Source: Azoarcus sp. L1K30 (GTDB lineage: Bacteria; Pseudomonadota; Gammaproteobacteria; Burkholderiales; Rhodocyclaceae). Taken from it: a stretch of DNA of 64,000 bases. Each line of letters opens with the position of its first letter. The first letter of the stretch is position 1. The notes under the pieces were generated by a model, which was not told the DNA's origin, searched no databases, and saw only the letters and a list, made by a program, of their open reading frames with translations. The position numbers and the translations under genes are program-made. This document shows positions 8,540-29,707 of the stretch, in pieces. The DNA is taken from NCBI RefSeq assembly GCF_018122735.1, contig NZ_JAGRRD010000001.1, positions 1,702,081 to 1,766,080 of the forward strand, read 5' to 3'.

Positions 8540-8546
8540 GACGCAC

Positions 8547-9206
8547 CTACTTCTTGAATCCAATCATATTGATCATCGCTGGTGCCAGCGAATATGCCGG
8601 TACGTCGCCACCCTCCAGCTTGTTTCGCTTGCGTTCCAGTTTTTCCTCACGCGACTTCGGCCGGAACAGGAAACGGTTCATCTTCTCCATGTTCCTGTTC
8701 CTGAGCGACAGCGTATCGCCCTCCTCGAGTGTGGAGACTGACGAGTATCTGTACTCCTGAAAGTCGATACCGGGAAACAGATAGCACACGGCTTCGGGTG
8801 TGAAGCGCCAAAGATCACCCGGATACCCGTGATACCGAAAAATAAAAGGCACGGATATGAAAATTGCACCACCCGGGCGTAACAATTGCGCGATATTGCG
8901 GCACGCACCGAAAACATCCGGAATGTGCTCGAGGAGGCTGATGCAGAAGACCGTATCGAACCTCCTGCCACCCAACGCTGCTTCGATCTGATCGAACGAT
9001 GCGGTGAGATCCAGAACGATATCGACGTTCTCGCCGGCCGCCATGTCGCATCCGGTAAAGTTGATCTCCTTGCCCTTGCCGATCAAGAGATTGCGGAGAT
9101 CCAGGTATGCATGCTCCTTGTATCTCTTCGAGCCAAGCTCGAGCACGTCGGTTCCGGCGTGGCCGATGTTCTTTGCAATCCATTCTGCTACGTTAGCCGA
9201 AGCCAT
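8547..9206 (-). CDS. class I SAM-dependent methyltransferase
   Basis: 219-aa methyltransferase. VLELGSKRYKEHAYLDL is motif I with the adjoining acidic residue, and FDTVFCISLLEHIPDVFGAC is the motif II region of the Methyltransf_11 type; LLRPGGAIFISVPFIFRYHG follows as motif III. The adjacent start codons at 9209 and 9206 are both possible. The second is preferred because AAGGA lies at a better distance from it, whereas the ATG at 9209 overlaps the TAA stop of the sulfotransferase gene. In a glycan export cluster an O-methyltransferase acting on a sugar or chain end is likely, but the acceptor is not evident. Confidence 0.82.
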   Translation of the reverse strand: MASANVAEWIAKNIGHAGTDVLELGSKRYKEHAYLDLRNLLIGKGKEINFTGCDMAAGENVDIVLDLTASFDQIEAALGGRRFDTVFCISLLEHIPDVFGACRNIAQLLRPGGAIFISVPFIFRYHGYPGDLWRFTPEAVCYLFPGIDFQEYRYSSVSTLEEGDTLSLRNRNMEKMNRFLFRPKSREEKLERKRNKLEGGDVPAYSLAPAMINMIGFKK

Positions 9207-9208
9207 CA

Positions 9209-10096: not shown

Positions 10097-10099
10097 TGC

Positions 10100-10984: not shown

Positions 10985-12368
10985 GTGATAGACAATTCTC
11001 AATTGATAGTCCGGAGACATCCAGCTGCAGACCGCTCGCTTTCGGGGAATTGGTCTGCAGCCCGAATACAATCAGCTTGATCTCTCCCGTGGCGCTCGTT
11101 GCGGCCCCCTGTTTGACAAGGTGCAGTGCCAATCCGTAGTGGTTCCTGGGCAGATCGGGTATTAGAAGCTTGAAGCGAATCTTGCTCGGCCTGCCTTGGC
11201 GAAAATGTACCGCATGCACCATCAGGACCGTGCGCCCGACCTCCAGCCCATGGCCCGAATGCAGGCTAAGCTCAACAGCCTCGCACGGGAAAGACGCATT
11301 GGGAAGGAGATCAACGCTTACATCCAGGGTTTCGCCCGGCCTTCTCAGAAGTCGCAACCTGGAACGCTCATATTGTTCACCGTCGACAACGATGCGCTTC
11401 GCGATCGCGACATGGCTCAATGCCTGTTTGGCGCTTCGGCGCTGGAAACGCTCATCCTCCTCCTGCATCGACGCTTCTGCATCTTCCGACTGAAACGCTG
11501 TCAGCCGCCCAGCCTCTTCGACATGCGCAATCCCGCCCATCTCGTCTTCCGGGTCGAAGACGGCATCTGGTTCCAGAGCGAGGTCAGATGTGGGTTCAAG
11601 GCCCATATCCGACCCATCGGACTGCCGCAGGAAATGCTCAAATGCCAACTCGGTGTGAAATGGTCCATACAGTCGCCCCTGCTGCAGCACCATGGACTGG
11701 TCGGCGACCTCCTTGAGGAATTCGAAATCCGTACTGACGACAAGCGCCGTACTGGCCAGAATGCGCTCGATCAACGCCGCCCGCGTCGCCAATCGGGCCT
11801 CGCCAGCCCCTGCACCAACGAGTTCATCGATCACGAGCATCTCGGCAGGAATCTGCAAGAGCAAATCCATCCCCAACTTTCTGATCAGGTAAGGCGAAAG
11901 ATTGCCCAGTGGGCGCTCCGCCACTTTGCTGTCGATGAGATTGCCCTGCAACACCCTTCCGACGGCACGGTCCAGATTCTCTCCCAGCAGGCCGGCGAGT
12001 GTCCCACGAAAAGCCAGGTTCTCCCGCAGACTCAAAGCAAGCTTGAAGCCCGCCGTGGGCCGACTGACAAGCAAGCTCGAAGACCTTGCCGCAACTCGCC
12101 CTCGAGTCGGGTGTAACACCCCACTGGCGATCCCAGCCAAGGTGGATTTTCCGCTGCGGTGAGCGCCGATGACGCCCAACTTCTGCCCCCTGCGCAATTG
12201 AAGAGTGATATCTCGCAACGCAAAGAAACTGTCGGGTCGGGGACGATTCAGCAGCGAACGGGGCCAGAGCATCTCACGCAGTACCGCGGCCGGAACGTCT
12301 GCGATATCACGGGGGAACGACCGGCTGACCTGATCGAGACTCAGAACGATGTCGCAGTCTTGGGTCAT
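10962..12368 (-). CDS. ABC transporter ATP-binding protein, Wzt/KpsT-type with C-terminal glycan-binding-like domain; degenerate motifs
   Basis: 468-aa ATPase subunit of a polysaccharide exporter. Walker A is GAHRSGKST (68-76) and Walker B is MLVIDE (D181, E182). Two normally invariant elements are altered: the signature LSSGM/LSGGQ reads LGNLSPYLIRKL near 154-165, and the H-loop histidine is threonine (VSTDFEF, T213). Residues after about 330 form a beta-rich C-terminal domain in the position of the Wzt carbohydrate-binding domain, which recognises the finished chain. The ATG at 12368 overlaps the stop region of the permease gene. Whether it hydrolyses ATP normally is open. Confidence 0.82.
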   Translation of the reverse strand: MTQDCDIVLSLDQVSRSFPRDIADVPAAVLREMLWPRSLLNRPRPDSFFALRDITLQLRRGQKLGVIGAHRSGKSTLAGIASGVLHPTRGRVAARSSSLLVSRPTAGFKLALSLRENLAFRGTLAGLLGENLDRAVGRVLQGNLIDSKVAERPLGNLSPYLIRKLGMDLLLQIPAEMLVIDELVGAGAGEARLATRAALIERILASTALVVSTDFEFLKEVADQSMVLQQGRLYGPFHTELAFEHFLRQSDGSDMGLEPTSDLALEPDAVFDPEDEMGGIAHVEEAGRLTAFQSEDAEASMQEEDERFQRRSAKQALSHVAIAKRIVVDGEQYERSRLRLLRRPGETLDVSVDLLPNASFPCEAVELSLHSGHGLEVGRTVLMVHAVHFRQGRPSKIRFKLLIPDLPRNHYGLALHLVKQGAATSATGEIKLIVFGLQTNSPKASGLQLDVSGLSIENCLSHDASELA

Positions 12369-12370
12369 CG

Positions 12371-13135
12371 TCAATGGCCGATATAGGCTGCCGCGAGGCG
12401 CACTTTTGCCTGGAAATAGTAGAGGCCAAGGCCGAGAAAAAGACACACGAGAAATAGCAAGCCCAGTACTGCGCTCGCATCAGGCATCGTACCGGTCAGC
12501 ATGTCCCTGAAAGGTACAATCATGTAGCTGAATGGATTGATATGATTGATCAGCGCCAACGGGCCAGACTGCGGTGCAGTGTAGAAGACTGGCGTCGCGA
12601 GCAGAAGGGCATACTGGACAAAGGGCATGGCATAACGGACATCCAGCAATGCAAGACTCAGCGGCAACGTGAAACACGCCATCGCCGCGCCCGCCGCCAG
12701 CAGGATGCACACAGCGAGTGGAAACCATGAAATGGACGCGGTAAATGGCACTTGAAACCAGATCAGGGCAGCAATCAGAACCGGGAGTTTGAGGGCGAAT
12801 GCGACCAGCGCCGACAGTGCGCCTGCGCCCAGCAAGACTCGAGCATCGAAGACGACAGATCGAAGGAGCATGTTGGCACGTCGTGCAAGCCTCATGGGCT
12901 CGAGCCACGTATCGGCTACCAATTGCCACAAAAGGAGTCCCGCGAGCAATTGAACCAGGTAGTTCTTCGATTGCCCTTCGCGGTACAACCCCAGGTCCTG
13001 CCCCACGAACAACGCCATCGAAACAAGGGTGAAGAGCGGCACGAGAAACCAGACGACGCCCAATAAGGTCCGTCGAAAGCGCACTCGAAAATCCCTCATG
13101 ACGAGTGACCACGCAGCCCACAGAAAAGGCTTCAT
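12371..13135 (-). CDS. ABC-2 type polysaccharide export permease (Wzm/KpsM-like)
   Basis: 254-aa inner-membrane permease with six predicted membrane segments. The N-terminal RDFRVRFRRTLLGVVWFLVPL motif is characteristic of Wzm/KpsM/TagG proteins, and NPFSYMIVPFRDMLTG matches the conserved segment before the last helices. It pairs with the downstream ATPase to flip a lipid-linked polysaccharide across the inner membrane. The ATG at 13135 overlaps the stop of the preceding gene (ATGA), and the ATPase starts just after its own stop, so the three genes are translationally linked. A longer open frame upstream lacks family similarity. Confidence 0.9.
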   Translation of the reverse strand: MKPFLWAAWSLVMRDFRVRFRRTLLGVVWFLVPLFTLVSMALFVGQDLGLYREGQSKNYLVQLLAGLLLWQLVADTWLEPMRLARRANMLLRSVVFDARVLLGAGALSALVAFALKLPVLIAALIWFQVPFTASISWFPLAVCILLAAGAAMACFTLPLSLALLDVRYAMPFVQYALLLATPVFYTAPQSGPLALINHINPFSYMIVPFRDMLTGTMPDASAVLGLLFLVCLFLGLGLYYFQAKVRLAAAYIGH

Positions 13136-14106
13136 GGCTTGGCTCGGGATCGCTCGCGCAGCCTTTTCACCGCGGGACGGGCCGTCATCGAATACAAGAC
13201 GTAGGCGGCCCGAAATCCAAGACTCGGAAGGCGCCTCAAGAATCGCAAAGGTCTTCTGAAACCTTTCAGCCGAGACTTCAACGTGCGACTCTTCGCAACT
13301 TTGCCTGATCCCTTTTTCAGCTTGGAATAACGGACCGTCCGACGTTGCAACTCGTCTGAGTGCAGAAGCAGATACTGCTCTGCAGTAAGGCGCTGTTCTG
13401 GCACCACGAAGAGGGAATCCAGCGTCAGGTCCGGCATCTGTGGTGCGACACCCCCCTCGAGCAATGCGTTGACATCGCATTGCAGCGAGGGACGAACGAG
13501 TCCGGCGCGAATATCGTCATCCACCATACCCGCATCGAGCACGCCCATCGCCATTGCCTGCTTCACCCATCCAAGCCAACGTATGCGCGCAGGAGAGAAT
13601 GCAGAATACCAAGGCCGCTGCGTAAATAGCAGCGCGCTGGTCAATCCGTCGGCGCCGATCTGCATCGGAAGGCTCCCCGCACTGAAACCCTCATACCGGC
13701 TGATCGCCTCGTAATCGGCCCCACTTGAAACAAAGTCCTGAAACTGCCGTACTTGAGCGTGCGCATTATCGACGACAAACAAGTCGAGGTCTGCGACCGT
13801 GGTAAATCCGTACGCTGCAAGCGCCTCGGTCCCGGATGCCAGCAACGCGATCTCTCCCGGCACGATATGACCAGGCAGAAAAACTGTCACCAGATCCGGA
13901 GCCGATTCGAGCGCCAGCAGGCGCAGCGCCAAGCGACGAGACGATTCCGCAGGCACATCGTCCCACGTCCGCCATTCGGTCAGCTGCGAAGATCTGACGA
14001 TCTCTCCCTGCGCACGCTTCTCGAGATCGGCTGCGAACGCGGACAAGACCGCGCGCTGCGTGTTGCACTGCGTTGCGTCGTCGAGAATAAAGCGGACTCG
14101 GGTCAC
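13132..14106 (-). CDS. hypothetical protein with GT8-associated C-terminal segment
   Basis: 324-aa protein of unknown function. The first 120 residues show no recognised catalytic motif. The segment LLFTQRPWYSAFSPARIRWL, followed by a helix and VRPSL, lines up with the C-terminal part of the fusion glycosyltransferase at 6971-8539 (LLHYTDMNTQPW ... VRPSL) and more loosely with the GT8 at 14116. The last 70 residues are strongly basic (many Lys/Arg), suggesting membrane or nucleotide-sugar contact. It lies between a GT8 gene and the exporter genes and overlaps the permease start. A diverged glycosyltransferase is plausible but unproven. Confidence 0.65.
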   Translation of the reverse strand: MTRVRFILDDATQCNTQRAVLSAFAADLEKRAQGEIVRSSQLTEWRTWDDVPAESSRRLALRLLALESAPDLVTVFLPGHIVPGEIALLASGTEALAAYGFTTVADLDLFVVDNAHAQVRQFQDFVSSGADYEAISRYEGFSAGSLPMQIGADGLTSALLFTQRPWYSAFSPARIRWLGWVKQAMAMGVLDAGMVDDDIRAGLVRPSLQCDVNALLEGGVAPQMPDLTLDSLFVVPEQRLTAEQYLLLHSDELQRRTVRYSKLKKGSGKVAKSRTLKSRLKGFRRPLRFLRRLPSLGFRAAYVLYSMTARPAVKRLRERSRAKP

Positions 14107-14115
14107 ATCAGTTTC

Positions 14116-14838
14116 CTATAGAAGGTAGGCCAGAAAGTGCTTGTGAATCGCACCTCGCCAGATCTCCTTGATCAACTCCAGACGCCCCACCGCACCAGCC
14201 CGGACAGCCTCTCTGAGCCACTTGCCCCAAAATGCCGTCAATGGATGACCCGGATTCTTCCAGGGCTGGGAACGAACGTAGCTGAAATGGGTGAGCTTGC
14301 TGTCGGGCTCCACGATATTGAAATGATTCCAGCGCGGATCGATCGGCTGGATCCTGTCCTGATCGAACCAGGTCAGCATCATGAAATCGCGGTAATGGAT
14401 CTGTCCCTCGCCAAGCTCGGCGCGATTGGGAACCACGTTCTGGAACATGGTGTCGGGATTCCAGTCGCGCAATTTGGCACACTCCATTGCCATGACGCTC
14501 GTCTGGTTGTGCTGCCCAACGGCCTTTGCGCCAAACGTCCCCTTTGGCTCCTTGACAAGCGCAATGCTATGGTCATCGTCAAGCGAGTCCGCCAACTCGT
14601 TTATGTCCGTGAATACCAATTGATCAGCGTCGAGATAAATGGCCTTTCCCTGATAGCCGTTGAGCTTGGGCACCAGGAATCGTACAAAACCGAAATTCGT
14701 GCCCCCCACCCGTTCGATTTCCTGCTTGACAGCGCGCACCTGGACGGGCCGCCTTGCATTCTTGTGAATCGAATACTCAAGAACCTTCTGCGGAATCAGC
14801 TGGTCGTCCTCGGTTCCGATATAAACAGTCAATGTCAT
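14116..14838 (-). CDS. GT8-like glycosyltransferase
   Basis: 240-aa GT-A fold protein. MTLTVYIGTEDDQLIPQKVL is the N-terminal donor-binding strand region; GFVRFLVPKLNGYQGKAIYL followed by DAD holds the DxD metal motif of family 8; LTHFSYVRSQPWKNP contains the conserved late His region. It is short compared with LPS galactosyl/glucosyltransferases but has all the core elements. It overlaps the upstream gene by ATGA. Together the two correspond to the two halves of the fusion protein at 6971-8539, so the pair may act as one enzyme. Confidence 0.8.
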   Translation of the reverse strand: MTLTVYIGTEDDQLIPQKVLEYSIHKNARRPVQVRAVKQEIERVGGTNFGFVRFLVPKLNGYQGKAIYLDADQLVFTDINELADSLDDDHSIALVKEPKGTFGAKAVGQHNQTSVMAMECAKLRDWNPDTMFQNVVPNRAELGEGQIHYRDFMMLTWFDQDRIQPIDPRWNHFNIVEPDSKLTHFSYVRSQPWKNPGHPLTAFWGKWLREAVRAGAVGRLELIKEIWRGAIHKHFLAYLL

Positions 14839-15581
14839 GGCGCCTCACTTTCAACGGACAGTTTGGTGAACTCGGCGACTATTTCATCGGGCCCGATGTC
14901 GCCCTTCAGCACTTCGTATTGATAATCAACCAGATGATAACCAATGACTGGCGACAGATTGAGGACACGAACGCCCTTACGGCGCAGAAAATCCTGCACA
15001 ACCAGTGTTCCTTTGACATAGCTGTCATAGTTTCTGACTTGCCCGCGCTTCAGTACCTCGTCCTCGCGGAACTTGTTCTTGTCGTATTGAGCGTAGTGTT
15101 TACCGCCCAGGGTCGTGCTGTCGCAACCGATCGTGTAGATAGTCCGAGCGCCCATTATCCAGGCCAGTTGCAAAGCCCCGTGCAAAGAACACCCTTCCGG
15201 GGTGTAGTACAGATAGTCGCCATTCTTCGACATTTCGTAAATCTGGTCGATGTCATGACTCCAGTCAAAGAAATAGAAATATGGATTGTCCCAATCGACA
15301 GCCGCCTTGCGATTCCGGCCCGTCCCTTTGACAACAGGATATTTGATACCGGAAAAATTCGGATGCAGGGGGGCGTCTACCGTATTGCCCTCTCTGCAAT
15401 ACGTCTGATGGTGCATGAAGGCAATCGGTGTGATATTTGAATTTATCTTGAAGCTATCGTTCAACGACATGCAGATCTTGTCGGCCAGAAAATCCATTGG
15501 GAAGACGTTGGCCGTTGGTCCGCTGCCAACGATGTATATTTCCTGGCCCGAATAGATATCTCTTAGATCGGATAAACGCAT
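14835..15581 (-). CDS. Rossmann-like glycan-cluster protein (DUF115/sialyltransferase-like)
   Basis: 248-aa protein with an N-terminal nucleotide-binding-like loop (IYIVGSGPTANVFPMDFL), the MSLNDSFKIN segment, and a later GALQLAWIMGARTIYTIGCD motif. This order is typical of the DUF115/CST-like family, which includes motility-accessory glycosyltransferases and sialyltransferase-fold proteins in surface-polysaccharide clusters. The same arrangement is the N-terminal half of the product at 6971-8539. The donor and acceptor are unknown. The ATG lies directly after the stop of the methyltransferase gene. Confidence 0.68.
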   Translation of the reverse strand: MRLSDLRDIYSGQEIYIVGSGPTANVFPMDFLADKICMSLNDSFKINSNITPIAFMHHQTYCREGNTVDAPLHPNFSGIKYPVVKGTGRNRKAAVDWDNPYFYFFDWSHDIDQIYEMSKNGDYLYYTPEGCSLHGALQLAWIMGARTIYTIGCDSTTLGGKHYAQYDKNKFREDEVLKRGQVRNYDSYVKGTLVVQDFLRRKGVRVLNLSPVIGYHLVDYQYEVLKGDIGPDEIVAEFTKLSVESEAP

Positions 15582-16241
15582 TCACTTTTCTCCCACCACT
15601 CGCATGTCACGTGGATCCTGCTGTTTGAACATGGCGCGCTCCTGGCGCACGTTGCGGAATCCGCAGCGCATGAGCAAGTCCACCAGAGTTGTCGGCGTGT
15701 AACCCCAACGATGACACATCAAGGGATCCTTCCAGGCCGGATCACCATAAAGCGGCCACATGGCCATCTGGCCGTCTTTTCCCACCGCACGAGCTGCACG
15801 CTCCGGCTCCTTGAGCAGCATGGCAGCAGCAGTCAATATGTTGGGACATTCCAGCACCAACGAGCCCCCGGGCTTCAGGATGTCACGCCAATGATTCAGC
15901 AGATCCTCCGCTTCCCAGGGGTAAAAATGCTCAATGACGTGGACCGACAGAATCTCGTCGGCATACTCCCGATCAAATTTCAGCGCACGCAAGTCTGCAA
16001 TGACATCCGGCCTGTTGCCTTTGCGTGATTCGGCGAAATCCACATTGACGTAGCCCTCCAGGATCTTGTCTCCGCACCCCAGGTTGAGTCGGACCTTTCC
16101 GTCAGGAGGTGGTGGGGACCACTTCATCTTCCTGACACGGCCAACGTCTCCCAGCCCTTTGACGGCACCTTTGCCCAGCAGCCTGCAGAGCATCTCCTTA
16201 ATGACCTGAAGCAACTCTGCTCCTTCGCTTTTCAAGGACAT
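15582..16241 (-). CDS. class I SAM-dependent methyltransferase
   Basis: 219-aa methyltransferase. VRLNLGCGDKILEGYVNVDF is a clear motif I with the following acidic residue, ILSVHVIEHFYPWEAEDLL is the motif II region and ILKPGGSLVLECPN motif III. This version is common in polysaccharide and glycosyltransferase clusters. The start is ambiguous: ATG 16241 overlaps the upstream gene by 44 bases but has an AAGGG upstream, while ATG 16193 would follow the upstream stop but has its GGAG directly adjacent, too close for a usual ribosome site. Substrate unknown. Confidence 0.8.
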   Translation of the reverse strand: MSLKSEGAELLQVIKEMLCRLLGKGAVKGLGDVGRVRKMKWSPPPPDGKVRLNLGCGDKILEGYVNVDFAESRKGNRPDVIADLRALKFDREYADEILSVHVIEHFYPWEAEDLLNHWRDILKPGGSLVLECPNILTAAAMLLKEPERAARAVGKDGQMAMWPLYGDPAWKDPLMCHRWGYTPTTLVDLLMRCGFRNVRQERAMFKQQDPRDMRVVGEK

Positions 16242-17181
16242 TCTGGAAAAACCCTTCGAATTGATTCGCGATGCTAGTGATGTGAAAACGCGGCGCCACT
16301 TCAAGAAACCGCTCGTGAATGCGAAGTCGGAGCGCATGGCTGTCGATCAGGCGATCGAGCTGTCGTTCGAACGATCCGGGCTGGTTGGTGAAGAACAACA
16401 CATCACCGGTATCCGTGTCATGCGCCGACATTTCTTCGTAATGAACGAGCGCCGGCGTGCCAGATCCAATGGCATTCGCCAGTTTGACGTTCGACTTGAA
16501 CTGCCGCGCGAGAAAACTTCCATGCTCTCCACCGCGGGCCAGGATGACAATATCGAGGTCGGCCAGACGCTGGGGATTGGCAACAAATTCGATCCCCCGT
16601 CGCGCGCAGGCCTGCTCGATTCTTGGCCGCCATTCGCCGAGGTAATCGCCCCCTTCATACCCAATGACGGTGACTCGCTCACGAATCGCATTCTTCTCGA
16701 TCCGCGGCCGGAAGTGGTGATAGATCGTTATTTTGTCTCGCACCAGGCCGCCAAGACTCTCCTGCATGCGCCGCGTCGGAAAAATGTATCCGTCCGCATC
16801 GATGCCCTTCCAGACCTTCGAGAAGAACTCGCGCGCCTTGACGGTGTCGGTGTACTTCATGCCATCTTCGGGTTGCGCCCACGAGTCGACGATATCGAAT
16901 ACGAGGGCCTTGCCCATCCGACGCGCTCTCTCAATCACCCGAGGATCGGGTCTCTTGACCAGACACACGACATCGGCTTTCTCGAGATCTTCATCAGAAG
17001 GTTTATTCAGGGCCGTCCAGTTGCTTCGCATGGATGCAATCTGCACCCCCCGAATCTGCCACGCCCCAGCAGATGATCGACTGGTAAAGCAGACATTGAC
17101 TGGCGAGGCGCCAACGCTGTCGGCCTGCGGCGGAAGCTCCACACCCGGACTCGCATTCCGGGAAAGCACATTGAGGGTCAT
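16198..17181 (-). CDS. GT-B-like glycosyltransferase of the leftward glycan block
   Basis: 327-aa protein, first gene of the leftward block. It starts MTLNVLSRNASPGVELPP and contains DVVCLVKRPDPRVIERAR, DADGYIFPTRRMQESLGG, RVTVIGYEGGDYLGEWRPRI and LANAIGSGTPALVHYEEM. The last is the donor-side region where GT-B enzymes bind the nucleotide sugar (GxPALV). No EX7E motif is obvious, so the family assignment is tentative. About 660 bases without a gene lie upstream, separating it from the divergent acyl carrier protein gene; the promoter for the whole leftward block should be there. Confidence 0.65.
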   Translation of the reverse strand: MTLNVLSRNASPGVELPPQADSVGASPVNVCFTSRSSAGAWQIRGVQIASMRSNWTALNKPSDEDLEKADVVCLVKRPDPRVIERARRMGKALVFDIVDSWAQPEDGMKYTDTVKAREFFSKVWKGIDADGYIFPTRRMQESLGGLVRDKITIYHHFRPRIEKNAIRERVTVIGYEGGDYLGEWRPRIEQACARRGIEFVANPQRLADLDIVILARGGEHGSFLARQFKSNVKLANAIGSGTPALVHYEEMSAHDTDTGDVLFFTNQPGSFERQLDRLIDSHALRLRIHERFLEVAPRFHITSIANQFEGFFQNVLEKRRSRVASGH

Positions 17182-17843
17182 TGACGCTATGGATTCCTTG
17201 GCAACGCTGCCACAACCAGGCCGATTTCGCGCAACGGCGTTCGTCGAAATATGCCAGGACACATCAACCCGTGCAGCCGGGATCGAGCGCCACCCCCTTA
17301 CACTTCCGCGCAGCGTCCCGACTTGCCACGAATTGCCGGTGTGCGCCGCGCGCAACATTCGTGGGCCGAAAAATTCTCACCAGGAGGCGGAATTCGCCCC
17401 GCGGCGGACGATCTTAGCTCGACTATGCCGTCACGACAACTCCGAATTCATGACAGCCAGACGTGCCTTAACGCGCCCCCCTCACCCGATCGTCGATCGC
17501 CTGGGCATGTATCCACGAGATGATCACCGCGGCCCGACCGCCCCAAATGGAGCTGAAATTCGAGACAAAAGGCGTTTTCTTGCAAGAAGCATCCTAAACA
17601 TCAGAAAAGCCGCCCTCCAATCCAACACATGATCGGACGAATCCGCCGCTTGGCGACCAAAGGCACAGGCCAGCGTGTGCCAGATTCTCCCGGACATGTC
17701 TTGAGATATACTGCCGGCACACTCAACGGATCGACTCCGAAAGAGAGTGATTTGGTTGGCTCCGTTGATTTCAGAGCTTCAAACATCGCCATTGCACGGA
17801 CGCAGTGCGTCGGCAGAGACAACCCAACAGATGCCCGAACACC
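17182..17843. other. 662-base intergenic region between the two divergent glycan operons
   Basis: No convincing gene was found here on either strand; open frames are short, rich in Arg/Pro or antisense to the acyl carrier protein gene. The part next to 17181 is as GC-rich as coding DNA, whereas 17560-17830 is mixed. A TATACT hexamer at 17707-17712 could be a -10 element for the rightward operon, but no good -35 stands at the right distance. It must contain at least two divergent promoters and is long enough for a leader region. Confidence 0.5.
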
Positions 17844-18080
17844 ATGAGTGAAGCCATTTACCTCCAGCTCAATCAGATCTTCCGTGATGTGCTGGACAAC
17901 GATGATATCAACCTCACTGCGGACACCACCGCTGCTGACGTGCAGGGCTGGGATAGTCTGGCCCACATCAATCTGATGCTGGCGGTCGAGCGGCACTTCA
18001 AGGTGCGCTTCGCGACGACGGAGATCGGCAGTTTGTCGAATGTTGCCGAACTGGTCTCGCTGCTCGAAGCTCAGATCTGA
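17844..18080 (+). CDS. acyl carrier protein
   Basis: 78-aa acyl/peptidyl carrier protein. GWDSLAHINLM carries the DSL motif, with Ser38 as the 4'-phosphopantetheine attachment site; the four-helix pattern and acidic character fit. It is a dedicated carrier, not the housekeeping AcpP, because it is the first gene of the operon with an FkbH-like loading enzyme 10 bases downstream and a MaoC/SDR fusion after that. The start at 17844 (MSEAIYLQLNQIF) is chosen from family length. It probably holds the acyl unit destined for the surface glycan. Confidence 0.9.
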   Translation: MSEAIYLQLNQIFRDVLDNDDINLTADTTAADVQGWDSLAHINLMLAVERHFKVRFATTEIGSLSNVAELVSLLEAQI

Positions 18081-18090
18081 TTGACGCCGG

Positions 18091-19968
18091 ATGCCTAACC
18101 TCGCTTCGTTACCCTGGCTGCCTCAAGCGCCCGAAGATTTCCGTGCCAGATGCAGAAACATGGGCAATGGCGACGATGCGCGCCAGCTTTCTACGCATGC
18201 GCTGGATCTGACTCAATTGGGTCAGTTGGCCCGCTCGATGCGGCGCCTGACCTCGCTCGCGCCGTTGACACCCTTCAAACTGGCCATATTGGGCAGCGCG
18301 ACCGTCGATTTTCTGATCGAACCCCTCGTTGCAAGCGGGGCGCGCTATGGTTTGGCCCTTGAAGTGTTCGGTTCGCCCTTCGGTCAGGTGATGCAGCAGG
18401 CGCTGGACCCTCACTCTGACGTCATGCGCTTCGACGCGAATGCGGTGCTACTGTATCTGGATTACCGTTTCTTCAAGCCCCCACAGGAAATCGGCAATCC
18501 ATCCTCCCTGCAGGCTGCCGTTGACGAGGCGATCGAACAAACCAATTCATTGCGGCAGTCTTTACGGCAGTCGGGGGCCACGGTCATTGTGACCACCATG
18601 CCTCCGCCCCCCTTGCCGCTGTTCGGCCATCTGGATGCCCGTGTAGCCGGCACAGGACGTGCGTTTGCTGAGTCATACAATACAGCCCTTATCAGGTCCC
18701 TGTCGCATACATCCGACATCCTCCTTGATGCGGCAGCCCTTGCGGCGACGGTCGGCCTTGCGACGTGGCATGATGCCCCGCAGTGGCTCGTGGCGAAGAT
18801 CCCCTTCAGCATGGATTGCGTTCCCCTGTTTGCAGACCATGTCAGCCGTATCGTGGCCAGCATGATGGGTAAGGCACGCAAGTGCCTCGTACTGGATCTG
18901 GACAATACGTTGTGGGGCGGCGTCATCGGCGATGACGGTCTCGAAGGCATCGAGATCGGCAATGGATCAGCCACCGGCGAGGCACACCTTGAATTGCAGC
19001 GAGCCGCCCTTGCCTTGCGCCAGCGTGGCATTGTGCTTGCGGTCAGTTCAAAAAATAACGACGACGTTGCCCGCAAGCCATTTCGCGAACATCCGGACAT
19101 GCTGCTTCGAGAGGAGCACATTGCCGTCTTTCAGGCCAACTGGCAGGACAAGGCAACAAATCTGGTTGCAATTGCAAAGTCGTTGAATATCGGTGTCGAT
19201 GCGCTCGTATTCCTTGACGACAATCCGGCCGAACGCGCACTGGTGCGTCAGGCCTTACCCCAAGTTGCCGTTTGTGAGCTCCCCAAGGACCCCGCGCTCT
19301 ATCCCGAAGTGTTGATGCAGGCCGGCTATTTCGAAGCGCTCGCATTTTCGGAAGAGGATCGTCTGCGTGCCGGGCAATATCAGTCGAATGGGGCCCGGGC
19401 TGCACTCGAACAGGCCGCAGCGGATCTTTCGACCTATTTGCACTCTCTGCAAATGGTCATCGCCTTCTCGCCATTTGATGTGATCGGGCAGGCACGTATT
19501 GCGCAATTGATAAACAAATCGAATCAGTTCAATCTGACAACCCGTCGGTATTCCGAGACCGATATCGAGTCCATCCGCAACGATCCTGCGCTCTTTACAC
19601 TGCAGGCCAGATTGACTGACAGGTTTGGCGACAATGGCATGATCAGTGTTGTGATCTGCCGTCCCGAAGGCCAACACTGGTCAATCGACACATGGCTGAT
19701 GAGTTGTCGCGTACTGAAGCGTCATGTCGAACTTGCCGTCCTCGACCAGATCATGGCCGCTGCCAGCGAGAAGGAGGTCCGAGAGGTGCGAGGCCGCTAT
19801 TTACCGACCGAGAAGAACGATCTCGTTCGCAATCATTATGAAGAATTGGGATTCACACAGATCTGTGCACACGAGGACGGCACCACGGAATGGCGGATGA
19901 ACGTCGCGGGATATCAAGCGCACGACCTCCCCATGGTCATCAAGACCTCGCTCCGCAAAGCGCCCTAG
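18091..19968 (+). CDS. FkbH-like HAD-superfamily protein (acyl/glyceryl-ACP loading)
   Basis: 625-aa protein with the full FkbH layout: an N-terminal SGNH/helper-like domain (60-250), a HAD phosphatase domain starting CLVLDLDNTLWGGVIGDDG (nucleophile D269, D271) with a later LVFLDDNPAERALVR motif, and a C-terminal GNAT-like domain (about 430-610; ARIAQLINKSNQFNLTTRR). Characterised FkbH proteins take 1,3-bisphosphoglycerate, remove phosphate and load a D-glyceryl unit onto an acyl carrier protein. The carrier gene is immediately upstream. Here the context is glycan modification, not polyketide synthesis, as no ketosynthase is present. Confidence 0.87.
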   Translation: MPNLASLPWLPQAPEDFRARCRNMGNGDDARQLSTHALDLTQLGQLARSMRRLTSLAPLTPFKLAILGSATVDFLIEPLVASGARYGLALEVFGSPFGQVMQQALDPHSDVMRFDANAVLLYLDYRFFKPPQEIGNPSSLQAAVDEAIEQTNSLRQSLRQSGATVIVTTMPPPPLPLFGHLDARVAGTGRAFAESYNTALIRSLSHTSDILLDAAALAATVGLATWHDAPQWLVAKIPFSMDCVPLFADHVSRIVASMMGKARKCLVLDLDNTLWGGVIGDDGLEGIEIGNGSATGEAHLELQRAALALRQRGIVLAVSSKNNDDVARKPFREHPDMLLREEHIAVFQANWQDKATNLVAIAKSLNIGVDALVFLDDNPAERALVRQALPQVAVCELPKDPALYPEVLMQAGYFEALAFSEEDRLRAGQYQSNGARAALEQAAADLSTYLHSLQMVIAFSPFDVIGQARIAQLINKSNQFNLTTRRYSETDIESIRNDPALFTLQARLTDRFGDNGMISVVICRPEGQHWSIDTWLMSCRVLKRHVELAVLDQIMAAASEKEVREVRGRYLPTEKNDLVRNHYEELGFTQICAHEDGTTEWRMNVAGYQAHDLPMVIKTSLRKAP

Positions 19969-19970
19969 CA

Positions 19971-21365
19971 GTGAATGTGAACGCACTCGACCGTCGTCGC
20001 TTCTGCCACACCGATCAGATCGAGTTCGCCCGCTTTTCGGGAGACCGCAATCCAATTCATCTCGACCCGGTCATTGCTCGGCGCACCATTGCCGGACAGT
20101 GCATTGTGCACGGCGCGCACAGCGTCCTGTGGGTACTGAATTCCCTGGCCCGAGTGTCGGTCGTAGCGGGAAGACTTCGCGCGCGCTTTCTCAAGCCTAT
20201 TTTCCTGGACGAAGAGATTTCTTGTGTATGGAATTCACAGGCCGGGAAGGTGCATCTGAGCGTGGACGGCATCACACTTGTCGATATCACGTTCTCCACC
20301 GCGCAACTCCCCACCAGGTCCGCCCTTACCCTTCCACCTCTGCCTGGTCGCGACACGCCCGCCGAACGCTCATTCGCGGAGTGTGCGACGCTTACTTCTC
20401 AAGCATTCGATCTACACGGCGATACGCATCTCGCTGCTGCTCTGTTTCCCGATGCCGTCCGCCTCTACGGCCAGCAAACTGTCAACGAGATCGCCGCCCT
20501 GTCGTACATCGTGGGCATGGAGGTGCCTGGAATGCACTCCTTGCTTTCGGGATTACGCTTTAGCCTCCGCGAGACAAGTGGCAGCTCAGTTTATTCCGTC
20601 ACCGAAAGTGACGAACGATTCAAGCAACTGCGCCTCGCAGTAGCGGGGCATTTTCTTGATGCCGAGGTCGAAGCATTTCACCGCCCACTGCCCACGCGAA
20701 TGCCCTCGTTGTTCGGATTGCGCTCCCGAGTCCACCCCGGGGAACATGCGGATGCTCACGCTCTTGTCATCGGAGGGTCGCGTGGATTGGGCGAGATTGT
20801 AGCCAAACTCATCGCTGCAGGTGGCGGGCGCGTCATCATCACCTACAGTACGGGCGCCGAAGATGCAGAAAGGGTGGTGGACGAGATCCGGAATGCCGGC
20901 GGTCAGTGTCAGGCCATTCAGTTGACGCTAGGCGCGTACGCCGCAATGCCCACCAACCTGCCGCTGATCAACCAGCTTTACTACTTTGCAACACCGAAAA
21001 TCTTCGGCAGGCGTACAACTCCCTTCAATGAGGATCTATACCGGAACTTTCGATCCGTCTATGTAGCCGGTTTCGAGACCGTCTGCACGTGGCTCATCGG
21101 GCGCGGCAATCGCTGCTCCGCCCTCTTTCCGTCGAGCATCGTCGTCGAGGATCCGATTCCTGAACTGGCCGAATACGCCAAGGCCAAGGCTGATGGAGAG
21201 GCACTGTGCCAACGCCTGAATGAAAACCACCAAATAGACATACTTACGCCTCGTCTGCCTCGCACAGTCACGGACCAGACACAATCCCTGCTGCACACTG
21301 CAGGCGAATGCCCCGCCGACGTGATCGCTCCGTTCGTACGCCGGATGACTGAACTCATCAAGTGA
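19971..21365 (+). CDS. bifunctional MaoC-like dehydratase / short-chain dehydrogenase fusion
   Basis: 464-aa two-domain protein. Residues 1-120 are a MaoC/R-hydratase hot-dog domain with the catalytic signature FARFSGDRNPIHLD (D25, H30). After a 130-residue linker comes an SDR domain: ALVIGGSRGLGEIVAKL (cofactor glycine motif), Ser388/389 and Y402-x3-K406 (EYAKAK). Expected activities are enoyl-thioester hydration/dehydration and NAD(P)H-dependent 3-keto reduction or hydroxyl oxidation, presumably on the acyl group carried by the upstream ACP. Translation most likely begins at a GTG at 19971, two bases after the fkbH-like stop. The middle segment has no recognised motif. Confidence 0.82.
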   Translation: MNVNALDRRRFCHTDQIEFARFSGDRNPIHLDPVIARRTIAGQCIVHGAHSVLWVLNSLARVSVVAGRLRARFLKPIFLDEEISCVWNSQAGKVHLSVDGITLVDITFSTAQLPTRSALTLPPLPGRDTPAERSFAECATLTSQAFDLHGDTHLAAALFPDAVRLYGQQTVNEIAALSYIVGMEVPGMHSLLSGLRFSLRETSGSSVYSVTESDERFKQLRLAVAGHFLDAEVEAFHRPLPTRMPSLFGLRSRVHPGEHADAHALVIGGSRGLGEIVAKLIAAGGGRVIITYSTGAEDAERVVDEIRNAGGQCQAIQLTLGAYAAMPTNLPLINQLYYFATPKIFGRRTTPFNEDLYRNFRSVYVAGFETVCTWLIGRGNRCSALFPSSIVVEDPIPELAEYAKAKADGEALCQRLNENHQIDILTPRLPRTVTDQTQSLLHTAGECPADVIAPFVRRMTELIK

Positions 21366-21398
21366 CATCACCTATCGCCCCCAACAGGCACGGCGCGC

Positions 21399-22829
21399 AT
21401 GCTCTTCAACGACTATTACTTCATCTTCTGGTTCCTGCCCCTGACCCTGCTGCTCTACCACACGGCGCTGGCCACACGCCGGACTACGGCTGCGAAATGG
21501 GTGTTGCTTGGATCTTCCCTCCTTTTCTACAGCCTGTGGAAGCTCGCATTTCTACCGCAATTTCTCCTTTCCATTCTCTGCAATCACTTAATAGGGACGC
21601 GGTTTCAATCACGAACGGATGTCAGCGCCTCCCGCCGTACCAACCGTGAAAAGGCACTTCTGTGGCTTGGCATGGGCGCAAATCTGGCCCTTCTCTTCTA
21701 CTACAAATACCTGACTTTTTTCGCCAGTCAATCGAACCTGCTGCTCGGTACCGATTTTGTTCTGGCAAAGATCGTCATGCCTTTGGGTATCAGCTTCTTT
21801 ACATTCATGCAGATGTCCTATCTTTTTGAATGTTATCAAGGCCGGGTAAAATCGAGAACGACCCTTCTTGACTACGCTCAATTCATCACATTTTTCCCGC
21901 ATCTGATCGCAGGACCGATCATTCTCCACAAGGAGCTCATACCGCAGTTCAATGACCATACCCGAATGCGGACCATACCGTTAAACATGGCGGTGGGTCT
22001 ATTCTTGTTCGCACTTGGTCTGTTCAAGAAAGTCGTCATTGCAGACAGCCTGGCTGAGAATGCGACACTACCATTCGACCGAGCCGCCTACGACGGGGTA
22101 AGGGTCTGGATTGGCGTGCTGAGCTACACGCTACAGTTGTATTTTGACTTCTCCGGCTACATGGACATGGCAATGGGTATCGCCCGCATGTTCAACTTCG
22201 ACCTCCCGGTCAACTTCGAAAGTCCGCTACGCGCCACCAATATCAGTGCCTTCTGGCGGCGGTGGCATATCACCATGACCCGCTTTTTCATGAACTACGT
22301 TTTCATGCCGCTCGCCATGCGCGCAGCGCGTCGGCATGCGGACATTCCCCCAGGCCGGCAGCGACGCTTTATTGAGGCAACGGCCATGCCAATCCTAGCA
22401 ACATTCATTCTGGCCGGTATTTGGCACGGAGCGGGCTGGAACTTCATCGTTTTTGGCCTCTGGCATGGCTGCGGACTTGTGATTCATCGCCTGTGGGAAA
22501 TGTCCGGACGCAAGATGCCCACTGTCCCGGCATGGATGCTGACATTCCTTTTCGTGACCGTTGGGTTCATCTTCTTTAGATCGCCAGATCTGGAGGTTGC
22601 GGGCAAGGTGCTCAGTGGGATGCTCACCCTGAACGGCGACCCCGCCGAATGGAGGCGCCTCCCCTTGATCGGCGTGGCCATTGCCATTGCACTTCTGCCA
22701 AGAAACAGCCAAACCTTGGCAAGCGCATTCCAGCCAACATGGCGCACCTTCGGGTGGACAATGTCAGCCATCATGGCATCGCTCGCCCTGATAAACCGTC
22801 AAACAGCATTTCTGTACTGGCAATTCTGA
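21399..22829 (+). CDS. MBOAT family O-acyltransferase (DltB/AlgI-like)
   Basis: 476-aa polytopic membrane-bound O-acyltransferase. MLFNDYYFIFWFLPLTLLLY is the usual AlgI-type N-terminus. AFWRRWHITMTRF (H290) and LAGIWHGAGWNFIVFGLWHG (H343) hold the two conserved histidines, H343 being the catalytic one. These proteins move an acyl group from a cytoplasmic thioester donor across the membrane to a periplasmic acceptor, as in D-alanylation or alginate acetylation. The next gene encodes the SGNH partner 1 base downstream. Here the donor could be the operon's own acyl-ACP. Confidence 0.92.
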   Translation: MLFNDYYFIFWFLPLTLLLYHTALATRRTTAAKWVLLGSSLLFYSLWKLAFLPQFLLSILCNHLIGTRFQSRTDVSASRRTNREKALLWLGMGANLALLFYYKYLTFFASQSNLLLGTDFVLAKIVMPLGISFFTFMQMSYLFECYQGRVKSRTTLLDYAQFITFFPHLIAGPIILHKELIPQFNDHTRMRTIPLNMAVGLFLFALGLFKKVVIADSLAENATLPFDRAAYDGVRVWIGVLSYTLQLYFDFSGYMDMAMGIARMFNFDLPVNFESPLRATNISAFWRRWHITMTRFFMNYVFMPLAMRAARRHADIPPGRQRRFIEATAMPILATFILAGIWHGAGWNFIVFGLWHGCGLVIHRLWEMSGRKMPTVPAWMLTFLFVTVGFIFFRSPDLEVAGKVLSGMLTLNGDPAEWRRLPLIGVAIAIALLPRNSQTLASAFQPTWRTFGWTMSAIMASLALINRQTAFLYWQF

Positions 22830-22830
22830 T

Positions 22831-24192
22831 ATGACAGAAAAAGGCAGACTCTCACTCTGGGTCTGGGGCGTATTGGCCTCGACCCTGGTGTTCCTTCTCC
22901 TCAATTTTGCCGTGTGGTTCTTCAATCTGAATCTGCTTTTCATGCCCTATCCGAACTGCGGCGATCTGGCGCGAATGGCATTGGCACCGGAAATCAGTCA
23001 ATGTCGCGAGGAAGAGCGCAATCTTTCCAAGCAGCTTCAGAACCCGACACTCGACAGATCATCGACTTTTCCCATTCTGACTTTTGGTGACTCGATATCG
23101 CGAGGACGCGGTGGCGGTGAGAACAATTACTGGCAAGACTTCGTGGCAACCCGATCAGGACTCGACATCGCATGGGTCTCCGAAATCGATGAGAACAACT
23201 ACACTCAAGACATCGTTCGCTTGCGCAATAGTGGTTATCTGCAAAGTCACAAGGTGCGCTATCTGATAGTCCAGGCGGCCGAGCGTACGGCCGTGAACCG
23301 CTTTACGAAGAACGTGAACTGGCACGAGACCATGCCACTCGATCGACTCGAAGCAAGACTTTCAGAGCAGTCCGCTCAACTATTTCTCGGTCACCAGTAC
23401 ATCGAGGAATGGGAAGCCCAAAGCGTTGTGCGGCAGGCACCATTTTCCGCACTGACCGCAAAAGCAATGCTGACGCAACTGATAACCATGCACTCTGCGC
23501 GCCTCGCCCTCGCCCTTGACAACACTTACAGGTGGGTCGCCAAGTATTACATGTCGCCGCAGGAGGCAAGTGAAGCCGAACCTGTCACCAACGCCATCGC
23601 ATCCATCTTTTCCACCGACGAAGCGGTTTCCGACCTTCCTCGAGCTGCACGCATGAGTTTTCTGGCGGACGGCATACGGAACCAGATGCCAGCCGCCATC
23701 AACAACAACTACAAATGGCTGCAGCGCAAGATCAGCAACCTTATCGGTGCAGACAAATACACGGAAGCCGCGCAACGCTGGAAACTCCGTCACCCCCTAT
23801 TCAGCGCCGAATATGGCGACACACTGATGTTTCATCTCGGGGACTACAAGGCCAACCGAAAAAACAGAGATGACTCCGGAATCATTGAGATGCATGAAAA
23901 TTTGAACCGTCTATCGGATTTTCTCGCACGTGACGGCATCCGACTCTTCTTCATGCCGACTCCCAACAAGTTGACGATCTACCAGGACTATCTGGAGGAA
24001 CCCATTGAGACGAGGAGCACATTCTTCCCTCGTCTCCGAAGCATGGAAGGCAAGCGATACACGTTCATTGATACCGAACAGGTGTTTTCAGAACTAGTGA
24101 AAATAGGCGAAAGGGATCTCTTTTTCATTGACGACACACACTGGTCCAACAAAACTTTGCCGCGGATCGCGGAGCTATTCCAATTTCCTTAG
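22831..24192 (+). CDS. SGNH-hydrolase-like membrane-anchored acyltransferase partner (DltD/AlgJ-like)
   Basis: 453-aa protein with one N-terminal membrane helix (about 9-31) and a large extracytoplasmic domain. ILTFGDSISRG supplies the SGNH nucleophile (S88) and the C-terminal FFIDDTHWSN the Asp-x-x-His pair (D434, H437), so the catalytic triad looks intact. Such proteins (AlgJ/AlgX, DltD) relay an acyl group received through the MBOAT protein to the polysaccharide in the periplasm. It lies directly after the MBOAT gene. It is longer than AlgJ; the middle region (about 180-330) shows no recognised domain. Confidence 0.83.
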   Translation: MTEKGRLSLWVWGVLASTLVFLLLNFAVWFFNLNLLFMPYPNCGDLARMALAPEISQCREEERNLSKQLQNPTLDRSSTFPILTFGDSISRGRGGGENNYWQDFVATRSGLDIAWVSEIDENNYTQDIVRLRNSGYLQSHKVRYLIVQAAERTAVNRFTKNVNWHETMPLDRLEARLSEQSAQLFLGHQYIEEWEAQSVVRQAPFSALTAKAMLTQLITMHSARLALALDNTYRWVAKYYMSPQEASEAEPVTNAIASIFSTDEAVSDLPRAARMSFLADGIRNQMPAAINNNYKWLQRKISNLIGADKYTEAAQRWKLRHPLFSAEYGDTLMFHLGDYKANRKNRDDSGIIEMHENLNRLSDFLARDGIRLFFMPTPNKLTIYQDYLEEPIETRSTFFPRLRSMEGKRYTFIDTEQVFSELVKIGERDLFFIDDTHWSNKTLPRIAELFQFP

Positions 24193-24283: not shown

Positions 24284-25342
24284 ATGCTCGGGTACTACCG
24301 ATTAACGGCGGCGATTGGCGTGCTAATAGCACACGCCAACCTTGGATCGGACAGCATGTCACGTGCGATGGTGGGGGCATTCTTCATCCTCAGCGGCTAC
24401 CTCATGGCGATGACGCTCTCAGGAAACTACAGCGGAAACCCGCTACCCTTCTACTGGAACCGTTTTCTGCGAATCTATCCAATGCACACAATAGTGGCCT
24501 TGGCTATTTTCGTCCTGACCCCATCCTTTGCCCGTGAGGTATTGGGATCAGGCCCCACCGAGGATTACGTTACTGCACTCTTTGGGTCCCTCACGCTAAT
24601 GTTCGGATATCAGCCGCTAATCGGCCCAGCGTGGACACTACCGTACGAACTATCCTTCTATCTCATCGCGCCAATCTTTCTTCCACTTCGATGGAGATCC
24701 ATGCCCATCGGCTTGCTCATTCTGGTGACAGCCTCCACGGCATGGCTCTATGTGCATGCCGCACTACCCTTCATGCTGAGGCCTTTTGCGATCGGGTACA
24801 CTCACCCCGTCACCATTCCGACTTCCATGCTCATGTTCGCCTTCGGAGCCATATTGCATGAATTGCGTAATCACATTGGCCACACTCGCGCCGATGGAGC
24901 TCTTGAATGGACTGGTATTTTGCTCCTTCTGGGATTAATCATCCTGGGTTCTCGCTACATCAATCCGGACATGAAAGAACTCGACGCAAATTTCGGCAAC
25001 ACTTTTCAGATTGTCACGTATCTTTCAGCAGCACTCATGCTGTTGGGCTGGCGACGCTCCGAATCGCCGACATCGAAGCTCGCAGGCGACCTGACCAACC
25101 CGACATACTTGGTACATTGGCCCCTCCTTCACGCAGGAATTTTCAATCTGACGATTCTTCGCCAGACAACCGACTGGTTTGGAAAGCTCTTCCCACTCGG
25201 TCACCTTGTGGCAATTTCGACAATCGTTCTATCCCTTACGCTTCTCCTCTCCTACGTACTGTTACGCTTCGACGCTCGCTTTATCCAGATATGCAGATCT
25301 CGAGAAAGAAACTCCATACGCCGACGCATCGCTCTCAGCTAA
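24284..25342 (+). CDS. acyltransferase 3 family protein (OafA/YrhL-like)
   Basis: 352-aa membrane protein with about ten helices. YYRLTAAIGVLIAHANLGSD contains the conserved catalytic His region and FYWNRFLRIYPMHTIVA the R-x-x-R-I-x-P motif of acyltransferase 3 enzymes, which add O-acetyl or other acyl groups to surface sugars. There is no C-terminal SGNH domain. A 91-base AT-rich gap separates it from the SGNH gene, so it may have its own promoter. AGGA stands close upstream of the ATG. It converges with the GT2 gene; the 123 bases between them hold nothing recognisable. Confidence 0.88.
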   Translation: MLGYYRLTAAIGVLIAHANLGSDSMSRAMVGAFFILSGYLMAMTLSGNYSGNPLPFYWNRFLRIYPMHTIVALAIFVLTPSFAREVLGSGPTEDYVTALFGSLTLMFGYQPLIGPAWTLPYELSFYLIAPIFLPLRWRSMPIGLLILVTASTAWLYVHAALPFMLRPFAIGYTHPVTIPTSMLMFAFGAILHELRNHIGHTRADGALEWTGILLLLGLIILGSRYINPDMKELDANFGNTFQIVTYLSAALMLLGWRRSESPTSKLAGDLTNPTYLVHWPLLHAGIFNLTILRQTTDWFGKLFPLGHLVAISTIVLSLTLLLSYVLLRFDARFIQICRSRERNSIRRRIALS

Positions 25343-28900: not shown

Positions 28901-29707
28901 TCACACCGATGCAATCGATCGTTCTCCGCGTTGGTAGGCATCGGTAAAGCGGTCCAGTCCATGACTGCCGCCATTGACCAGCCGGCGGGCATGGCGCAGA
29001 TCACCTTCCAGCAGGGCGATCTTGATACCGTTCTCCTTGTCCTTGAGAAATGCCGCCAGTAGGCGGCCGGCGATCAGGGGGTCGGATGCAAGCTCCGGCT
29101 CTCGAATCAGACGATCGCCCAGCCCCAGCTTCTCGCCGAAACGGGCGTAATTGAAACGCCCGGTCAGCTGGATGTAGCCACGCCCTCGATAGCGCTCGCC
29201 ATCGGGCGCCCCCTGATTGCCGAGATCGCGACGCGCATCGTAAAGATCGAAGGGGTGGCCGCGAGGCGAGGTATTGAATCGCGACAAACCTTCGGCCACG
29301 GGTCTGAAACTCTCGGTTTCCGCACGAATCGTGGCCAGCGCCATCAACACCATGGGCTTGTCTGTCAGCCCCAGTTCCGCGAGGGCCTCGCTCACCGGCG
29401 GCAGATTCTCGCGAATGTTGCTGATCGGCGTCGATGGAAACATTTCAGACACCGCCTGGACCGTCACCCCAGGAAGCACATCGGGCCACACGTCACCTTT
29501 CCTGGCAAGCTCCAGGGCCGCGAGCGTTCGCGGCCCTGCGATGCCATCAGCCAGTAGCCCCTCGCTCAGCTGGAATGCCATCAATGCGGCCTCGGTGCCG
29601 CCCCCGAACTCGCCATCGATCAGTCCCGGGGAGAATCCGCGTGCATCGAGTGCCTTTTGCAGGCGTTTGACCGCAGCCCCGCTCATTCCCCGCCTCAACG
29701 CTGTCAT
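28901..29707 (-). CDS. peptidoglycan-binding protein with GH19 (chitinase/endolysin-like) domain
   Basis: 268-aa protein. Residues 5-65 are a PG_binding_1 domain (GMSGAAVKRLQKALDARGF, DGEFGGGTEAALMAFQ). Residues 80-268 are a glycoside hydrolase family 19 domain with MVLMALATIRAETESFRPV (catalytic Glu) and GERYRGRGYIQLTGRFNY. It should cleave beta-1,4 linkages of peptidoglycan, as phage-type endolysins of this family do. No signal peptide or adjacent holin is seen and no other phage gene is near, so it is either a domesticated lysin or a secreted effector using another route. Confidence 0.83.
   Translation of the reverse strand: MTALRRGMSGAAVKRLQKALDARGFSPGLIDGEFGGGTEAALMAFQLSEGLLADGIAGPRTLAALELARKGDVWPDVLPGVTVQAVSEMFPSTPISNIRENLPPVSEALAELGLTDKPMVLMALATIRAETESFRPVAEGLSRFNTSPRGHPFDLYDARRDLGNQGAPDGERYRGRGYIQLTGRFNYARFGEKLGLGDRLIREPELASDPLIAGRLLAAFLKDKENGIKIALLEGDLRHARRLVNGGSHGLDRFTDAYQRGERSIASV

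Follow-up and report, generated by a model that had tools for sequence, protein, structure and literature searches.

A putative carrier-fed MBOAT-SGNH operon for surface-glycan O-acylation in Azoarcus sp. L1K30

Among the pathways that pair a membrane-bound O-acyltransferase (MBOAT) with an SGNH protein, Dlt is the only one with a carrier protein, according to the accessible text of PMC12148441. The same text describes an FxYxxF peptide for PatA and DltX, whose tyrosine accepts the acyl group; other MBOATs carry this hexapeptide on two extra helices, in pathways stated to lack a carrier protein. Dlt genes have been reported in a few Gram-negatives, namely Dickeya and Pectobacterium (PMC5541007, in excerpt). 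Described FkbH proteins make glyceryl-acyl carrier protein (glyceryl-ACP; PMC7489565 and PMC8949500, both in excerpt), and the fates given for it in PMC7489565 are polyketide extension and tetronate rings. Here, an operon that combines elements of these systems was analysed. It lies at positions 17844-24192 of a 64,000-nucleotide stretch of Azoarcus sp. L1K30 (contig NZ_JAGRRD010000001.1, positions 1,702,081 to 1,766,080), referred to in the following as the window.

The five genes are arranged head to tail on the plus strand, with the gaps of 10, 2, 33 and 1 bases given in the initial annotation. The first gene (17844-18080) encodes an ACP of 78 residues (PF00550, 9e-7) with the phosphopantetheine serine S38 (17955-17957), as expected of a Dlt carrier; no DltC-specific model matched. 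The second (18091-19968) encodes an FkbH-type loader of the HAD-IIIC kind with 625 residues. Its score of 304.4 bits against TIGR01686 (cut-off 146.65) and its DxD residues D269 and D271 are those of a glyceryl transferase/phosphatase, and C539 lies in an SCR motif. The third gene, which starts with GTG (19971-21365), codes for a 464-residue fusion of a MaoC domain (PF01575) with a short-chain dehydrogenase/reductase (SDR; PF00106). It is followed by the gene of a DltB-like MBOAT (21399-22829; 476 residues, PF03062) containing H290 and H343. This protein scored 171.9 bits against the DltB equivalog model TIGR04091 and thus stays under the cut-off of 375, though DltB is its closest solved structure among the matches listed. 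The last gene (22831-24192) encodes an SGNH membrane protein of 453 residues, in which S88, D434 and H437 provide the Ser and Asp-x-x-His of an SGNH partner. Its match to PF16822 (1.2e-8, 35.4 bits) is partial and covers residues 344-440 only; that to PF00657 (0.0015) is under the cut-off of this model.

All active-site residues named in the initial annotation are present and are conserved among the aligned homologues; in these alignments, the window sequence counts twice. S38 of the ACP occurs in 34/34 rows, and D269, D271 and C539 of FkbH are invariant (37/37). H343 of the MBOAT is found in 68/68 rows and H290 in 67/68, and the residues D25/H30 of MaoC and S388/Y402/K406 of SDR in 23/23. The absence of a ketosynthase was likewise borne out for PF00109, whose matches in this genome (nine places) all lie outside the window; KAS III-type models were not tested.

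With a probability of about 0.76, the operon is a carrier-protein-dependent O-acylation system for a surface glycan that works like Dlt, FkbH replacing DltA. In the proposed mechanism, FkbH would act like its described counterparts and form, from 1,3-bisphosphoglycerate, a glyceryl thioester with the dedicated ACP, and the MaoC-SDR protein would modify the ACP-bound acyl group. The cytoplasmic helix of the MBOAT would then serve as docking site for the acyl-ACP, and H343 would move the acyl group to Y473 of the C-terminal hexapeptide FLYWQF on the periplasmic side. From the acyl-tyrosine, the group would pass to S88 in the SGNH partner, and this protein would esterify the exported polysaccharide of the adjoining ATP-binding cassette (ABC) transporter locus. 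The probable acceptor is what this flanking glycan locus (6971-17358, minus strand) produces; the locus contains an ABC-transporter ATPase match, two glycosyltransferases of family GT8, and a CmcI-like and two other methyltransferases.

The AlphaFold2 model of the MBOAT (predicted local distance difference test, pLDDT, 93.1) is closest to DltB among the matches listed (Z 30.7; next family 23.4). Among the best 50 rows of this fold comparison there is no bacterial MBOAT other than DltB, so that DltB cannot be ranked against PatA or AlgI. Residues 1-403 align with DltB; beyond them, the model contains two helices (415-431 and 448-463), and the chain ends with the acyl-shuttle hexapeptide FLYWQF (F471, Y473, F476; 22809-22826, plus strand), which follows the FxYxxF motif as given in the accessible text of PMC12148441. 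The conserved His and the C-terminal FxYxxF that characterize the MBOATs of MBOAT-SGNH polymer acyltransferases are both present. Given this ending and the two extra helices, the window MBOAT joins a donor gene of Dlt type to a shuttle that is fused as in PatA.

A tyrosine-bearing hexapeptide ending is also found in 19 of the 22 ACP-linked MBOATs that were collected from 21 loci of sampled genomes, and 16 of these endings are strict FxYxxF. The three motif-less proteins (those of L113 and L122, and the second one of L117) have the size of DltB. The gene set of L113 comprises FkbH, ACP, a 48-residue membrane open reading frame (ORF) ending with LVYREF, a motif-less MBOAT of 441 residues, separate MaoC and SDR genes and a 377-residue protein with a GPS motif. 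The small ORF sits between the ACP and MBOAT genes; it overlaps the MBOAT start by 1 base and, counted from its first ATG, the ACP end by 25. In L117, a 49-residue ORF ending with LVYKIF precedes the motif-bearing MBOAT on its strand, at a distance of 69 bases. Neither microprotein matches a Pfam or NCBIfam model. Only three distinct DltX-like ORFs were detected in about 1.37 Mb of loci scanned (some loci included twice), and the ORF scan of the window gave no separate one. The third is a membrane ORF of 46 residues in L148 (G856:C18, 2929-3069), which ends with PFRYALF, matches DUF5989 weakly (E 0.1) and has an ordinary MBOAT at a distance of about 2 kb. L117 as a whole (G958:C187, 5703-14716) contains two MBOATs, one with and one without the hexapeptide, two ACPs, one FkbH and the DltX-like ORF.

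The search for conserved neighbourhoods proposed in the initial annotation retrieved all five genes in unchanged order from L003, a metagenome-assembled genome labelled Rhodocyclaceae, and related sets from further sampled genomes. The L003 proteins share 79, 75, 61, 80 and 71% identity with those of the window; the operon is flanked on both sides by conserved glycan genes, and several genes of the window glycan locus are conserved there. In the family sample of 199 genomes, MaoC-SDR and SGNH were each found in two, the same pair of genomes for both; four genomes from the genus of the window matched neither. The gene set thus looks accessory and inherited together. With this family search, the refuting condition of the initial annotation (an MBOAT/SGNH pair in relatives without ACP and FkbH) was tried. 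Outside the family, such MBOATs do occur in the absence of an ACP, so the pair as such needs none.

A scan of genome contigs with MaoC-SDR yielded a single locus, and profile searches of sampled genomes gave more, namely 5/300 (order), 2/199 (family) and 16/398 (phylum); with a protein query, the class gave 2/369. In a phylum-wide sample that includes the window's genome, FkbH exceeded the cut-off in 51/299 genomes with 88 genes, and MBOATs were sought in these 51. An MBOAT is located within 5 kb of 18/88 FkbH genes (16 genomes) and within 6.5 kb of 20/88 (18 genomes), compared to about 0.7 genes expected at 6.5 kb from random MBOAT placement. An ACP match accompanies the FkbH-MBOAT pair in every fetched locus except L116; in L125 and L127, the ACP is at least 8 kb away from the MBOAT. 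In L115, L118, L120 and L126, the ACP and MBOAT genes are only 41-107 bases apart. Control MBOAT stretches, picked for lying away from FkbH, contained no ACP match. Furthermore, FkbH was found in 18/18 searched genomes among the 20 with a MaoC-SDR match, and also in G896, at a base rate of 51/299; G513, whose MaoC-SDR match lies in an open frame of 4656 residues, was left out of this test.

Among 20 ACP-linked loci (L034 set aside), the fused MaoC-SDR is part of the cluster in seven and lies about 4 kb away in L042. L113 has separate genes, and in 11 of the 20 no MaoC-SDR was found (L124 gave a weak match). Since MaoC-SDR itself led to several of these loci, its share among them is biased upward. 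As it is missing from 11 loci, the basic donor is probably glyceryl-ACP, which would be modified in the window operon; the FkbH product is probably directly usable, and MaoC-SDR a tailoring step. As far as seen, the minimal unit consists of ACP, FkbH, MBOAT and SGNH. The FxYxxF ending of the MBOAT and the optional nature of MaoC-SDR in relatives go beyond the initial annotation. Both G-x-S and D-x-x-H occur in 16 of 19 SGNH candidates chosen by their cluster position; D-x-x-H as written is absent from those of L034, L113 and L122, and in L045 part of the motif region is masked.

The MaoC-SDR protein (AlphaFold2 model, pLDDT 90.8) contains a hydratase-like domain with D25 and H30 and a FabG-like reductase with S388, Y402 and K406. 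Its fold matches are FabG-like and its sequence matches are MFE2/hydratase proteins; judged by these comparisons, it resembles an (R)-hydratase fused to a FabG-like reductase. Residues 146-237, which match no Pfam model, form helices and four strands in the model and may be a second hotdog half. Such an enzyme could remove water from glyceryl-ACP to give an enol-pyruvyl group and, by subsequent reduction, a lactyl group. A gene of about 15 kb in L009 (Ensifer canadensis pT173a, from 9974), annotated as an SDR only, begins with a MaoC-SDR-like stretch.

For a comparison of the donor side, the 22 ACP-linked MBOATs were contrasted with controls consisting of L006 and the MBOATs from 39 out of 40 retrieved stretches (about 4-13 kb each, some ended by contig ends); they represent 40 of the 77 MBOATs that lie away from FkbH. 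No MBOAT row came from L140, and L048, which contains the same gene as L150, was dropped. A third group comprised four MBOATs that have FkbH, but no ACP, in their vicinity (L116, L127 and two in L125). In a quick tree of the 66 aligned MBOATs, ACP linkage requires eight changes, at least five of them on supported branches. A single clade of ACP-linked MBOATs was rejected on this tree (approximately unbiased test, p-AU 2.8e-52).

A column scan revealed that the Gly-Gly of a PLGG motif is present in 38/40 unlinked and in 1/22 ACP-linked MBOATs; the window MBOAT contains A306 and M307 at these positions. They belong to residues 298-312 (22290-22334, plus strand), the segment that corresponds to DltB helix HC. 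Two further positions differ: N331 is found in 35/40 unlinked versus 1/22 ACP-linked MBOATs, and G339 in 32/40 versus 2/22. Gly-Gly is kept in 4/4 proteins of the third group. The sole ACP-linked MBOAT keeping it is that of L034, with an ACP 6.0 kb away; we think that this linkage is accidental, yet L117, equally far from its ACPs, does not have PLGG. The control exceptions are L150 and L172 (RG); L150 clusters with the window MBOAT, has a MaoC-SDR gene at a distance of about 5.5 kb and may itself be carrier-linked. Solved DltB has no Gly-Gly at this position. In an ungapped count from the catalytic-loop His289 of DltB, V305 and I306 fall on the glycine positions, whereas in the HMMER register V305-L308 are inserted and the glycines stand opposite M309 and R310. 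DltC contacts helix HC at M302, V305, I306 and M309 (PMC11035591, in excerpt). Both registers place the segment in helix HC; the ACP-linked MBOATs therefore differ where DltB docks its carrier. The Fisher value of the contrast is 2.9e-13 with ancestry ignored. Five independent pairs exist on supported branches, of which a mean of 3.6 agree, none oppose and 1.4 show no difference. The median PF03062 score is 69.6 near FkbH (n=25) versus 99.2 elsewhere (n=77), which is a hint only.

The central idea of the initial annotation, i.e. the passage of a carrier-bound acyl group through MBOAT and SGNH to a surface polymer, is supported by the gene linkage, the C-terminal shuttle motif and DltB as the nearest solved structure. 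It gains further backing from L113 with its separate DltX-like ORF and from the loss of Gly-Gly in the carrier-docking segment. Several observations weigh against it. The PLGG contrast is not significant after correction for ancestry (median p 0.125), was found by scanning the columns of the same data that it describes, and was judged on a quick tree with long branches. The ACP label is loose for L117, whose ACPs are 5.1-7.3 kb from its MBOATs, and for L046 (opposite strand, 4.5 kb), and the use of acyl-CoA by unlinked MBOATs is an assumption. The TIGR04091 score was rejected as a carrier marker, since both controls scanned (L006 and L165) score like linked MBOATs. The L117 microprotein is 343 bases away from the motif-less MBOAT and on the opposite strand, and no DltX-like microprotein was found for the motif-less MBOAT of L122. 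ACP-FkbH-MaoC/SDR occurs without an MBOAT in L007 and L008. Finally, donor chemistry, transfer direction, docking and acceptor polymer were deduced from genes, residues, linkage, motifs, predicted fold and co-occurrence rather than from biochemistry.

The modules of L007 and L008 bear on two other explanations. In L007 (G323:C1:2802000-2821900, 9085-13603), ACP-FkbH-MaoC/SDR adjoins a 292-residue protein without a Pfam match, and no MBOAT was found; flagellar hook/rod-like genes, recognised by eye, are nearby, and the module may feed a flagellar glycan. In L008 (Niveispirillum plasmid NZ_CP025615.1, 8933-13419), genes for FkbH, ACP, a WcbI-type putative acetyltransferase and MaoC-SDR stand in a row near transposase genes, which indicates another kind of acyltransferase partner. 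If such a module were just a neighbour that feeds another enzyme, the MBOAT and SGNH proteins of the window could perform plain O-acetylation from acetyl-coenzyme A (acetyl-CoA) like PatA. This would also suit the second MBOAT of the genome (L006, G000:C1:4538000-4556000, 7096-8679), in which both PLGG and the hexapeptide are retained. Its surroundings gave no match to ACP or FkbH; about 3.4 kb from it is a gene that looks ligase-like on visual inspection. However, a second genus has the operon in the same order, FkbH genes lie near MBOAT genes more often than random placement predicts, Gly-Gly is lost in 21/22 ACP-linked MBOATs, and SGNH and MaoC-SDR share the identical two family genomes. 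Plain O-acetylation is thus quite unlikely.

Alternatively, the acyl-ACP might acylate a nucleotide sugar in the cytoplasm, the MBOAT and SGNH genes merely sharing a glycan locus. The flanking proteins of L007 and L008 would be compatible with this, as would the ACP-dependent N-acylation of a nucleotide sugar proposed in Flavobacterium (PMC6519341, in excerpt) and the fkbH-domain gene cj1302 in a Campylobacter flagellar glycan region (PMC7099621, in excerpt). A Pfam search recognised no cytoplasmic N-acyltransferase-type enzyme for nucleotide sugars among the operon genes, and the close spacing of ACP and MBOAT genes in four loci speaks for their joint function; we regard this alternative as very improbable. 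A milder variant retains the machine and replaces its cargo, the FkbH subfamily loading a small acid other than glyceryl. Glyceryl is a predicted substrate of the window FkbH, and MaoC-SDR resembles a hydratase plus 3-ketoacyl reductase. On the other hand, D269, D271 and C539 are invariant, and glyceryl-ACP is the product of the described FkbH proteins, which makes a different acid rather unlikely. A much broader proposal is that a carrier-fed MBOAT-SGNH class with FkbH replacing DltA exists in Gram-negatives, that its MBOATs switched repeatedly and independently between acyl-CoA and carrier and exchanged the PLGG loop for a DltB-like docking helix, and that in the MaoC-SDR branch the conversion of glyceryl-ACP via enol-pyruvyl-ACP to lactyl-ACP lets the window operon lactylate its surface polysaccharide; taken as a whole, we consider it doubtful.

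Two further features of the window probably do not belong to the carrier-dependent system. An AT3 acyltransferase gene (24284-25342, plus strand; PF01757) starts 91 bases after the SGNH gene on the same strand; L003 has no counterpart there, and the gene perhaps serves a separate O-acetylation. At 28901-29707 on the minus strand, a peptidoglycan-binding domain is accompanied by a sub-cut-off match to glycoside hydrolase family 19 (GH19).

If the carrier-dependent reading is true, the donor side of MBOAT-SGNH machines would be modular, and the operon would supply candidate genes for groups other than acetyl on the glycans of Gram-negatives, conceivably glyceryl esters such as those of gellan. 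In the available parts of two Sphingomonas papers (PMC11340318, PMC5399355), no glyceryl-transferase gene is named. The PLGG difference would then provide a sequence test of carrier versus CoA use. A literature search yielded no account of polymer acylation that involves FkbH together with an MBOAT; the two papers with both terms concern, by title, cyanobacterial peptides. The literature searched does not describe the form of MBOAT-SGNH acylation considered here, which would be carrier-fed, with FkbH in the role of DltA and with the DltX motif as part of the MBOAT.

The relatives of PatA/PatB include AlgI with AlgJ/AlgX for alginate and WssH/WssI for cellulose. With PatA/PatB, the operon shares an SGNH partner and an MBOAT that is extended by two C-terminal helices with the hexapeptide at their end. 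It differs in its carrier gene, PatA/PatB being described without a carrier protein (PMC12148441, accessible text), and in the missing Gly-Gly that most sampled unlinked MBOATs keep. The FkbH-ACP glycerate modules of methoxymalonyl-ACP and tetronate pathways have the same pair of FkbH and stand-alone ACP; here, this pair stands beside a membrane acyltransferase and an SGNH protein, and the window has no PF00109 ketosynthase. Common to the operon and Dlt are a dedicated carrier protein, an MBOAT with DltB fold, an SGNH partner and the FxYxxF motif, and L113 adds a small membrane ORF with a similar ending. FkbH stands where Dlt has the D-alanine ligase DltA, and Pfam and NCBIfam models detected no DltA in the operon's five genes or in that of AT3; the shuttle motif is fused to the MBOAT rather than residing on a separate DltX, and MaoC-SDR tailoring is added. 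As DltA and a separate DltX are lacking and the DltB cut-off is not reached, the operon is of the MBOAT-SGNH kind and not Dlt proper: it is Dlt-like on the donor side and PatAB-like on the shuttle side.

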